Positions 17,547 to 53,505 of a DNA stretch of 64,000 nucleotides are shown piece after piece. The notes under the pieces were generated by a model. That model did not search any database. It was not told where the DNA came from and saw only the letters and a program-made list of their open reading frames with translations. This DNA comes from Candidatus Hydrogenedentota bacterium (lineage in GTDB: Bacteria; Hydrogenedentota; Hydrogenedentia; Hydrogenedentales; JAGMZX01): positions 6,411 through 70,410 of the forward strand of contig JAKQEQ010000130.1 of the NCBI GenBank assembly GCA_029556545.1, in the 5' to 3' direction. Numbering within the stretch: the first letter of the stretch is position 1; each line of letters begins with the position of its first letter. Position numbers and translations under genes: made by a program.

Positions 17547-17573
17547 GTCCTTTGGGTCCCTTTGGTCCCTTCT
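17547..17573 (+). repeat. Three 9-bp tandem units, GTCCCTTTG type
   Basis: GTCCTTTGG, GTCCCTTTG and GTCCCTTCT lie 21 bases beyond the stop of the minus-strand phosphodiesterase gene. The same units occur on the minus strand inside the GH28 gene near 42200. Confidence 0.75.
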
Positions 17574-40601: not shown

Positions 40602-40682
40602 GTCGGACCAGTCCGACAGGTGCGACGGGTGCGACGGGTGCGACAGGTCCGACAGGTCCGACGGGTCCGACGGGTCTGACCG
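40602..40682 (+). repeat. Nine-copy 9-bp tandem repeat, GTCCGACGG type
   Basis: Nine consecutive 9-mers: GTCGGACCA, GTCCGACAG, GTGCGACGG twice, GTGCGACAG, GTCCGACAG, GTCCGACGG twice, GTCTGACCG. They fill the space between the GH78-like and GH28-like stop codons. This is the longest member of the 9-bp repeat family in the window. Confidence 0.9.
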
Positions 40683-40708: not shown

Positions 40709-42265
40709 TCAGGGCGTCGCGCCGTGCTCCGCCGGCGCCGGGCGGCCGTCCACCAGCGCGTCCGGCGCATCCTTGAGCAGCATCAGCGGCGCGCCGTCCG
40801 CGCTTTGCCGCGCGGTGAAGCCGTCGATGCGCAATCCCCGCACGTTCTCACAGTAGAGGGCGAGTCCAGGTTCGCCAGGCTCCGAGGGGGCGGGCGCGCC
40901 GTCGTCATCCGGCCACGCGACGTCGCGGTAGACGTCCGTGGTGATCCGCCAGAAATCATCGGCATAGGTGAAATCGATGTTGCGCAAGGCCAGACCTTCC
41001 ACGTGACGACAGAATAGACCGTAGGCCGGCAGCGTGCGGAACATGAGCGCCTCGGGGTAGACCCGCGCGAGTTCCATGACCGGCTTATCCACGGGGTGCG
41101 GCGCGTTCCCGCCGACGAACGCGACCCGGATATCCGAAAGGGTGACGCCCTGAACGCGGGCATCCGGGATGCCCGTGACGCTGCACGCGAACGACGCGCG
41201 CGTGGCGACGATGTTGCTGATGCTTACGTTGCGCAGCGCGCCCGGCACGGGCGTCTCCATGTCGCGGCCTCGATTTCCGAGGCGGATGAAGATGGGCGCG
41301 CGCACGCGGTCCATCGTGATGTTCGACACGACCACGCCGTCGAGATCGCCGCCGTCCACCGATTCGAGGGCGATTCCCGAAATGGCGGGTCGATTGTCGC
41401 GATATCCGGTGATGACGCAGTTGCTCACGGCGATTCGCTTGAAGCCGCCGCCGGACTCGGTGCCGAGTTTGAACCCGTTGCATACGGTCGAGAGGACGCA
41501 GTTCGTGACGGTGATGTTCTCGCAAGCCCGGCGTTCGCCCAGCGAGAAGCTGGCCTTCGGCACGATGGCGTCGTCGATGCTCTCGATGCGGCAATTCGAG
41601 ATGCGCACGTTCCGGCACGAGTCCGGGTCGATGCCGTCGCAGTACCCATTGAGGATCGTGACGCCGTCGATATGGACGTCGTCGGTTCCGAGCAGGCTGA
41701 TCGTGTAATTCGGCGCGTTCAGGATGTGGATATCGCGGATGCTCACGAACCGACATCGGCGCAACGCGATGGGCTTTGGACCGCCGCGCCGCGTGAAGTT
41801 CGCGTCGATGAGGCCGCCGCCCACGATGGCGACGTGTTCGAGACCCTCGCCGAACAACAGCGCATGACGGAAGAATGAGGTCTCGTGGTCGGCGTCGTTC
41901 TTGAATCCGAGTTCCTCATAGGGATCGTAGTCGTCCCGATTGTCGCTGCCGAGCAGCGTCGCGCCCTGCTCGAGGCGCAGCGCCATGCGGCTCCGCAAAT
42001 GCAGCGTGGCGCTGCGGTAGACGCCCGGCGAAAACAGCACCGTCCCCCCTGTCTCGCCGCAGGCGTCGATGGCCCGCTGTACGGCCGCCGTGTCGTCCGT
42101 TACGCCGTCGCCGACGGCGCCGTGTGCGCGAACGTCGTGCATCCCCTCTCCCCGAGGGAGAGGGTCAGGGTGAGGGTTTTCGCCCATTGCGATAGGAGAA
42201 AGGACGAAAGGGGCCAAAAGGACCAAAAGGACAGAGAACGATTGCGGGGTGCGCGTCACGTTCAT
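40709..42265 (-). CDS. GH28-like polygalacturonase / rhamnogalacturonase
   Basis: A 518-residue right-handed beta-helix protein. The mature part starts with AHGAVGDGVTDDTAAVQ and carries GYCDGIDPDSCRNV and SIDDAI, the two Asp regions of GH28. The usual Gly-His-Gly is replaced by VCNGFKLG, so the catalytic His is uncertain. The start at ATG 42265 overlaps the upstream ceramidase-like stop (ATGA) and has GGGGAGAA eight bases before it. Oddly, the signal peptide core (SVLLVLLAPFVLS) is encoded by four 9-bp tandem repeats, and the next residues (PHPDPLPRGEG) by a REP-type palindrome. It probably acts on pectin together with the GH78-like enzyme. Confidence 0.8.
   Translation of the reverse strand: MNVTRTPQSFSVLLVLLAPFVLSPIAMGENPHPDPLPRGEGMHDVRAHGAVGDGVTDDTAAVQRAIDACGETGGTVLFSPGVYRSATLHLRSRMALRLEQGATLLGSDNRDDYDPYEELGFKNDADHETSFFRHALLFGEGLEHVAIVGGGLIDANFTRRGGPKPIALRRCRFVSIRDIHILNAPNYTISLLGTDDVHIDGVTILNGYCDGIDPDSCRNVRISNCRIESIDDAIVPKASFSLGERRACENITVTNCVLSTVCNGFKLGTESGGGFKRIAVSNCVITGYRDNRPAISGIALESVDGGDLDGVVVSNITMDRVRAPIFIRLGNRGRDMETPVPGALRNVSISNIVATRASFACSVTGIPDARVQGVTLSDIRVAFVGGNAPHPVDKPVMELARVYPEALMFRTLPAYGLFCRHVEGLALRNIDFTYADDFWRITTDVYRDVAWPDDDGAPAPSEPGEPGLALYCENVRGLRIDGFTARQSADGAPLMLLKDAPDALVDGRPAPAEHGATP
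42144..42178 (-). repeat. REP-type palindrome translated as PHPDPLPRGEG
   Basis: CCCTCTCCC and GGGAGAGGG form a perfect 9-bp stem with a CGA loop, followed by TCAGGGTGAGGGTT. This element is common between genes in many bacteria but here lies in frame inside the GH28-like gene. Confidence 0.75.
42197..42232 (-). repeat. Four 9-bp tandem units inside a signal peptide
   Basis: On the minus strand: GTCCTTTTG twice, GCCCCTTTC, GTCCTTTCT. Read in frame they give VLL, VLL, APF and VLS. They match the intergenic units at 17547. Confidence 0.85.
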
Positions 42266-43620
42266 GGGGTTTCTCCCCGCGGCAAGGCGCCGAGTCGCGC
42301 GGCGAGTTCCTTCACTGTGTCGAGGACGCGCCGCTCGACGTCGTTGCGCCATTTAGCGGGCATACCGTATTCCATCTGGGCCGTTTCGCCTTCATAGCCG
42401 CCCTCGTTCAGGACGCGCACAGAAGGGATGTAACTCATGAGATCATTCGAGAAACCCATAACAAAGGTGTCGCGACCGAGCAGCCGCTTGATGAATATGG
42501 CGTAGTCGACGACGACCTCGCCGCCGAGCGCCACGACGTTCTGCTCGCCGAGCCGCCAGAGTTGCACCGGATACGGATACGAGGTCCGCAGGGACTGGCC
42601 GGCGTCCAACTGCGCGATCATGGCTTCCGCGGCGTTCCGGTTGTGCGGGGCCGCGGTCTTTGCATACGCGACCAGTTGATCGCGCGTGGGCGGCGTCTCG
42701 AGCAGCAGTTCTTGCTCGATGTAGGCGGTCTGGAGTACGGGATCGAACGCCCGCATCGGATCGGCCAGCGCGCGCTCGACAGCGGCGGCGAGTTCCTTGC
42801 CGTACTGCTCCGCAAGCGCCACCGAACGCCGCGGCAGCGGATTCTGGTCCGCGCCGCATCCGGCGAAGAATAGCGCCGTCGCACCGGGATGCGCCGCCTC
42901 GATCGCGATCTGCGCATAACCGGGATAATCGCCGCACCACTCGTAGCCGCTGAGCACGGTGCCGTGGCAGGCATAGCCGAACACGAGCGCCGCCACCGCG
43001 CCGTCGGCGCCCGTTACGCGCAGCACCGGCACGGCGTGGTCCACTGGTCCCTTGAAGTCGTACGTGTCGAGTATTTCCGCTTCCTTATTGTTGCGGCGGT
43101 TCACGGCGAAGCGCGTGACTCCGTTCGCGGAGGCCAATTGCGCGGGCCGCATGTCCGCGAAGGCCGCCTCTACCAGCGAAACGACCCGATCCTCGAGGGC
43201 GTCGGAATAGCGTTTCACCTTCTCGATGCCTTGTGAATCGAGCGGATACATACACATTAGCGATTCATTAATCACCGGTCCCGAATGCGTGTGCGAGGCA
43301 TTCAGGATGATCGCCGCGCGCTCGAGCCCGAGGCGATCCCGCAGCCGGTCGCGTATGCGATCGGACATGGCCTTCGGGAAGCCGAGGATATCCGCGGTGA
43401 CCAGAACCGCCTGGTTGCCAGCGGCGTCGCGCAGCGCCAGCGCCTTGATCCATAGCGGATGCAGCGCGCCCTCCGCCTCGCGATCACGCGCGGCGTAGCC
43501 GGCCAGCCACATCGGTTCCTGGGGCGTGATGTCCGCCCGGGCCACGCCCGCCATCCAGACGCCATCCGCCGCGCCGCACAGCATCGACCCGCCGAGCAAA
43601 GCCATCATGATCGTCCCCAT
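42262..43620 (-). CDS. Exported neutral/alkaline ceramidase-like protein
   Basis: A 452-residue protein of the neutral/alkaline non-lysosomal ceramidase N-terminal family. The N-terminus ends in VARADITPQEPMWLAGY, typical of the family. Zinc-ligand regions NASHTHSGPV and GYACHGTVLSG are present. Where true ceramidases carry the nucleophile Ser, this protein has GCGADQNPLPR, as in many Planctomycetes homologues, so amidase activity on ceramide is doubtful. A short hydrophobic start (GTIMMALLGGSMLCGAADG) suggests export. AAAGGA precedes ATG 43620. The stop overlaps the GH28-like start by 4 bp, so they are coexpressed. Confidence 0.78.
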   Translation of the reverse strand: MGTIMMALLGGSMLCGAADGVWMAGVARADITPQEPMWLAGYAARDREAEGALHPLWIKALALRDAAGNQAVLVTADILGFPKAMSDRIRDRLRDRLGLERAAIILNASHTHSGPVINESLMCMYPLDSQGIEKVKRYSDALEDRVVSLVEAAFADMRPAQLASANGVTRFAVNRRNNKEAEILDTYDFKGPVDHAVPVLRVTGADGAVAALVFGYACHGTVLSGYEWCGDYPGYAQIAIEAAHPGATALFFAGCGADQNPLPRRSVALAEQYGKELAAAVERALADPMRAFDPVLQTAYIEQELLLETPPTRDQLVAYAKTAAPHNRNAAEAMIAQLDAGQSLRTSYPYPVQLWRLGEQNVVALGGEVVVDYAIFIKRLLGRDTFVMGFSNDLMSYIPSVRVLNEGGYEGETAQMEYGMPAKWRNDVERRVLDTVKELAARLGALPRGETP

Positions 43621-43753
43621 GCCGGAAATCCTTTCATCTTGTACAGCGATGATCCACCCGCACGATACGAGCAGCCGCGCCGGAGAATCAAACTTACGAT
43701 GGCTTTTTCTTGATAGCGACGCGATTGAAGGCTATGATGGTTCGAGAATCATA

Positions 43754-43774
43754 GGGACAAGGGACAAGGGACAA
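43754..43774 (+). repeat. Three-copy 7-bp tandem repeat GGGACAA
   Basis: Three perfect GGGACAA units followed by GGGTTG, 56 bases upstream of the DegT-family gene. TAGTCCCT (43806-43813) in the same gap recurs in the repeat at 53112. Confidence 0.75.
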
Positions 43775-43830
43775 GGGTTGCCCCGGTTTCCTAATCCCTG
43801 ATCGCTAGTCCCTCACAGGAGAACATTATC

Positions 43831-49934: not shown

Positions 49935-49990
49935 GTGTGATTACGAGGACGAGCGGTGTAGATGTATATAGATATATCACTACACTGTAA

Positions 49991-50016
49991 CCCTAAACCC
50001 TAAACCCTAAACCCTA
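49991..50016 (+). repeat. 7-bp tandem repeat CCCTAAA (telomere-like)
   Basis: Three perfect CCCTAAA units and a partial CCCTA, ending 15 bases before the DUF6807 ATG. The unit equals the plant telomere repeat but sits between bacterial genes. Confidence 0.85.
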
Positions 50017-53111: not shown

Positions 53112-53132
53112 CTAGTCCCTAGTCCCCAGTCC
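53112..53132 (+). repeat. Three-copy 7-bp tandem repeat CTAGTCC
   Basis: CTAGTCC twice then CCAGTCC. The RidA stop codon (CTA on this strand, 53119-53121) lies inside the second unit. Confidence 0.75.
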
Positions 53133-53505
53133 CTCTCCAAGCCACCGCCTCGATCTCGACCTTGATATCAAGCGGCAAACGGCCGACCTGCACACAACTG
53201 CGCGCCGGGCAGTCCGTCGTGAAGTACTCCTGGTAGATGCGGTTGAACTCGGCAAAGTCGTTCATATCCGCGAGGAACACAGTTACCTTGACGATGTCCT
53301 TAAGGCCGCATCCGGCGGCGGCGAGCACCTTCTCGAAATTCGCGAAGGTGACGCGCGTCTCATGCTCGAACGTGCCATAGGCGACTCCTTGCGCGGTGAA
53401 GGGGCCCTGCCCCGAGACGAAGACGAAGTCGCCGGCAATCACAGCGTGGGAATACGGCCCCTTGGCCGGCGGGCCGTCCGTGGCGTTGACGCATTGTTTT
53501 TGCAT
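53119..53505 (-). CDS. RidA/YjgF-family enamine/imine deaminase
   Basis: A 128-residue RidA family protein. It has the conserved N-terminal GPYSHAVIAGDFVFVSGQ, the central VTVFLADMNDFAEFN, and PARSCVQVGRLP with the key Arg that binds the substrate carboxylate, then VEIEAVAW. RidA proteins hydrolyse reactive enamine or imine intermediates made by PLP enzymes. The length is standard. ATG 53505 is preceded by GGGGAGAG; longer in-frame starts are unlikely. It lies 105 bases from the HAD gene on the same strand. Confidence 0.93.
   Translation of the reverse strand: MQKQCVNATDGPPAKGPYSHAVIAGDFVFVSGQGPFTAQGVAYGTFEHETRVTFANFEKVLAAAGCGLKDIVKVTVFLADMNDFAEFNRIYQEYFTTDCPARSCVQVGRLPLDIKVEIEAVAWRGTGD

Follow-up and report, generated by a model that had tools for sequence, protein, structure and literature searches.

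A predicted signal peptide in a Hydrogenedentota GH28-like protein with a core read from an in-frame array of a dispersed 9-bp repeat

Genes at the locus

The window (the whole stretch of DNA analysed, 64,000 nucleotides) carries a GH28-like gene of the pectate-lyase superfamily on its minus strand (40709..42265; 518 amino acids from ATG 42265), with hits to Pfam Glyco_hydro_28 (1e-13; 51.5 bits against a curated cut-off of 22.9, residues 185-412 of the 547-aa frame) and Pect-lyase_RHGA_epim (2e-10). Upstream on the same strand lies a neutral/alkaline ceramidase-like gene (42262..43620; PF04734, 1.5e-17). Its stop and the start of the GH28 gene overlap: ATG 42265-42263 and TGA 42264-42262 are read from the shared letters ATGA. 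This overlap had been put forward in the sequence-only reading as support for the frame and is confirmed here. The junction next to the same-genus ortholog (73% identity) reads GTGA, a GTG start overlapping the ceramidase stop. The gene pair also persists in two genomes from another family, where an ATG preceded by GGAGG lies 29 nt ahead of the ceramidase stop. The overlapping junction is kept in four genomes from two families, and the GH28-like gene is probably translationally coupled to its neighbour.

The frame is free of stops from ATG 42142 up to ATG 42265. A codon-usage gene finder places the start at ATG 42142, downstream of the repeat array described below, and this ATG is preceded by a strong purine-rich sequence, GGGAGAGGGG. 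The sister ortholog has an open frame of near-equal length, VTRPRTTALGFPPNGPLCVPLVLLVFSSLAMPLAAESPDSR-DVRAHG, with no in-frame ATG at the point equivalent to 42142. Folding of the leader RNA gave only a modest excess of structure (z = -1.6).

The predicted signal peptide and its repeats

Translation from ATG 42265 gives a protein that starts with MNVTRTPQSFSVLLVLLAPFVLSPIAMGENPHPDPLPRGEGMHDVRAHGAVGDG. The predicted signal peptide with the first mature residues (42176..42265, minus strand) reads MNVTRTPQSF-SVLLVLLAPFVLSPIAMG-EN. Judged by tripartite anatomy and family conservation, it has the layout of a Sec signal peptide: an n-region, MNVTRTPQSF, that is weak with its one arginine; a core with a hydropathy of 3.15, in the top 5% of N-termini; and AMG before E, after which cleavage is likely to occur. 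Read this way, the leader points to export of the GH28-like protein by a Sec-type signal peptide.

The hydrophobic core of this predicted signal peptide, VLLVLLAPFVLS, is encoded by a four-9-mer array (42197..42232, minus strand), GTCCTTTTG GTCCTTTTG GCCCCTTTC GTCCTTTCT. Direct reading of the 36 bases from 42232 to 42197 on the minus strand gives VLL VLL APF VLS in frame with the GH28 gene. The four in-frame 9-mers are thus exactly as had been claimed, with the correction that only the first two are identical; units 3 and 4 are diverged copies. That the repeats form the hydrophobic core is borne out by this in-frame reading and by removal of the array, which leaves no hydrophobic segment (best 11-residue hydropathy 0.15, against 3.15 with the array). 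The mean hydropathies of the core in its six frames are 2.82, 0.51, -0.05, -3.51, -2.61 and -2.26, and the V-L-L frame is the only one that is strongly hydrophobic. An array in the V-L-L frame could therefore be used as the core of a signal peptide, and with a unit of 9 bp the gain or loss of one copy would change the core length by three residues without a frame shift.

A second repeat lies just behind the predicted cleavage site. This dispersed palindrome (42138..42176, minus strand) consists of CCCTCACCCTGACCCTCTCCCTCGGGGAGAGGG followed by GATGC and is read in frame as NPHPDPLPRGEG(MH). It occurs in 12 exact copies in the source genome and in none in the sister genome. GATGC, which holds ATG 42142, also follows other copies, and the palindrome thus probably supplied both the rival ATG and its purine-rich upstream sequence. 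A literature search with the peptide NPHPDPLPRGEG gave nothing relevant. The palindrome arms at 42144-42176 are CCCTCACCCTNACCCTCTCCC..GGGAGAGGG(GATGC), and three copies stand in tandem at one locus (contig C133).

Orthologs and ancestry of the leader

GH28 orthologs from within and beyond the order were compared. By eye, all 42 ortholog loci, which amount to about 38 distinct sequences with the two from the genus counted in, show a signal-peptide-like N-terminus. The 9-mers are present in just two orthologs, those of the source genome and of its same-genus sister; the others, about 36 distinct sequences, have signal peptides with at least 6 mismatches to the 9-mer pattern. The sister core, GTCCCGTTG GTCCTTTTG GTCTTCTCT, has 2 mismatches, occupies the same place in the same frame, and aligns without gaps with the last three units of the source core; the source genome has one clear unit more. 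The alignment is most simply read as descent of the in-frame 9-mers from a common ancestor of the two. A lengthening by one unit relative to the sister is possible and consistent with slippage, its polarity not being fixable from two sequences.

Since the GH28 family already had signal peptides, the repeat would have rebuilt or lengthened an ancestral core and would not have created export. The earlier proposal that a multiple-of-three repeat can create or lengthen a signal peptide is therefore to be divided: creation does not hold here, all other orthologs found having a signal peptide without 9-mers, and lengthening stands as a possibility.

The GTCCYTTNG family

Membership of the family was taken to require an unbroken run of two and a half or more 9-mers that fit GTCCYTTNG; the array in the GH28 leader matches with 1 mismatch in 22 positions. 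Its likeness to the intergenic units at 17547, noted in the sequence-only reading, is real: the array there (17547..17568, plus strand) reads GTCCTTTGG GTCCCTTTG GTCC. With up to 2 mismatches allowed, GTCCYTTNGGTCCYTTNGGTCC matched the 6.1 Mb genome at 65 places and its reversed control at 0. The family is spread over an order of uncultured bacteria, with matches in 34 of 68 genomes; it is scarce in the same-genus sister genome (just 6 matches at the same threshold). GTCCTTTCG and GCCC variants are present in other arrays of the family. No description of a 9-bp intergenic repeat of this kind was found in the open-access papers searched.

Placement relative to genes was scored in 1.6 Mb of the 6.1 Mb genome. 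Among 36 arrays, 32 are clear of called genes, 3 reach into a gene's 3' part and 1 lies in the GH28 leader. GTCC repeated three times at 9-bp spacing occurs 44 times outside and 4 times inside called genes, with 85% of the DNA called coding; at spacings of 6, 7, 8, 10 and 12 there are 0 to 7 occurrences. In the order's other genomes a further 95 arrays were placed, 89 of them outside called genes, an approximate figure, the finder having been trained on the Hydrogenedentota source genome. A position outside genes is usual for the family, though not part of its definition, and the array at 42197-42232 departs from it by sitting in a translated leader.

GTCC at exactly 9-bp spacing shows strong enrichment, nearly all of it in non-coding DNA, and has several sub-types, GTCCYTTNG, GTCCGATCC and GTCCATACC (stretches L074-L133 and L196-L215 of the source genome). 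Most GTCCYTTNG arrays have an opposing gene ahead of them and point at its 3' end, often from 10-50 bp beyond the stop. Inverted array pairs were also seen, about 35-110 bp apart (L078, 6219-6380; L131, 12581-12715; places in genomes G005 and G009); those of the source genome sit between convergent genes, where a transcript hairpin is possible, perhaps as a terminator or processing site.

Chance expectation and search for further cases

A codon model was built with frequencies from 359 candidate leaders (signal-peptide cores) of the source genome, in which about 1370 such leaders are estimated genome-wide. Under this model the per-position probability of matching with 1 mismatch or fewer is 2.6e-8. 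Only about 5e-4 such matches are expected genome-wide, and generic signal-peptide codons therefore do not account for the family match. In the Val-Leu-Leu frame, every other candidate leader differed from the pattern by 5 mismatches or more.

The search for other signal peptides made of these 9-mers, which had been proposed as a check, left the generalisation weak. No further convincing case was found among about 130 other arrays (1.6 Mb of the source genome plus other genomes of the order), the GH28 leader standing alone among about 131, and extension of gene frames upstream of the called starts in the source genome gave no other 9-mer signal peptide. Because some 130 other arrays are without a convincing signal peptide, a route from repeat to signal peptide is possible but would be rare. 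Two hydrophobic phase-0 extensions in other genomes (L235, L239) were rejected, the downstream genes' own starts looking adequate; by its first residues one of these genes is HslV-like, which implies a cytoplasmic protein.

Interpretation

We consider it probable that the locus encodes a translated Sec-type signal peptide of a secreted GH28-like glycosidase, and that its core is an in-frame GTCCYTTNG array. The array would have been inherited at least from the common ancestor of two species of the genus; later, in the source lineage only, the palindrome would have entered in frame just behind the cleavage site. For the mutational route we infer insertion or slippage, and the order of events is proposed on the same footing. 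Against this account, the feature is carried by two sequences, and the sister's 9-mers could partly be coincidence, the family being scarce there. A fuller version is held tentatively, at somewhat below even chances. In it a dispersed 9-bp intergenic array would have taken the place of the ancestral core, and would now act as an export signal whose length can be tuned without loss of frame, the linker behind it having later been lengthened by a second dispersed repeat; if true, one protein N-terminus was rebuilt from two kinds of spacer DNA.

The strongest competitor, to which we give perhaps one chance in a few, is that an ordinary core held one chance GTCCTTTTG (Val-Leu-Leu) whose tandem duplication mimics the intergenic family. 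A rough hand estimate from codon frequencies puts the expected number of single units in signal peptides at a few per genome; the identity of units 1 and 2 is what a recent duplication would leave, and the sister genome has few family arrays. However, GCCCCTTTC, GTCCTTTCT and the sister units also fit the family pattern, of which variants are known elsewhere, and the full match is far rarer by chance than a single unit.

That array and palindrome are untranslated spacer repeats before a cytoplasmic protein starting at ATG 42142 is suggested by the intergenic position of nearly all other arrays, by the purine-rich sequence and by the finder's call, but this case, which would have undone the earlier reading, is very improbable in view of the stop-free frame to the conserved junction overlap, the leaders of all orthologs found, the probably repeat-borne ATG and its absence from the sister. 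Translation from ATG 42265 through the leader is instead well supported by sequence comparison, because the junction is conserved, all orthologs have signal-peptide-like N-termini and ATG 42142 is apparently repeat-derived.

Comparison with known systems

The preferred reading, an in-frame family array as signal-peptide core, is of a kind already known. YPAL/RU-2 of Yersinia, as summarized in PMC2229807 (citing Delihas 2007), is a dispersed, mainly intergenic 168-bp MITE that forms an in-frame part of the predicted signal peptide of YPO1552. The likeness lies in a mainly intergenic repeat read in frame within a predicted signal peptide; unlike the MITE, which by that summary belongs to a putative new exported protein, the GH28 case is a 9-bp tandem array in an old, conserved enzyme family already provided with signal peptides. 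In Neisseria opa genes, CTCTT pentamer tracts in the leader-peptide region shift the frame and give on/off phase variation (PMC3960869, PMC5354566). There too, part of a signal peptide is written in short tandem repeats, but the 9-bp unit, unlike the 5-bp one, cannot shift the frame and alters length by three residues only; the GH28 leader is accordingly not phase-variable in the opa manner. Rickettsia palindromic elements (105-146 bp) lie in protein genes (PMC2229807); the NPHPDPLPRGEG palindrome resembles them, by description, as a dispersed palindrome tolerated in frame inside a conserved protein, although they are much longer. The Beggiatoaceae have intergenic TAACTGA direct-repeat arrays and, as far as the account in PMC4679880 describes them, share with the GTCCYTTNG family many short tandem arrays across intergenic regions, with a 7-bp instead of a 9-bp unit, another sequence and another phylum.

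Beside the Yersinia MITE and the opa leaders, the GH28 leader is a further, well-resolved case, and the absence of the repeat from the gene's relatives makes it unusually easy to trace. About 36 ortholog sequences are repeat-free, the sister has the feature in weaker form, and the source genome has the array plus a second, lineage-specific insert; together they offer a traceable example in which non-coding repeat DNA turned into a working part of a protein.

Signal peptides require little beyond hydrophobicity, and are for that reason a natural landing place for spacer repeats that are hydrophobic in one frame.

Other short repeats in the window

A 7.8-copy 9-bp array, GTCCGACGG (40611-40680), lies between the 3' ends of the convergent GH28 and rhamnosidase genes and has the GTCC-N5 architecture of the GTCCYTTNG family. 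Heptamer arrays at 43753-43777 (AGGGACA, 3.6 copies) and 53112-53134 (CTAGTCC, 3.3 copies) resemble the GTCC unit with a 7-bp period. Four copies of the plant-telomere-like heptamer CCCTAAA stand at 49989-50016 in this bacterial sequence.
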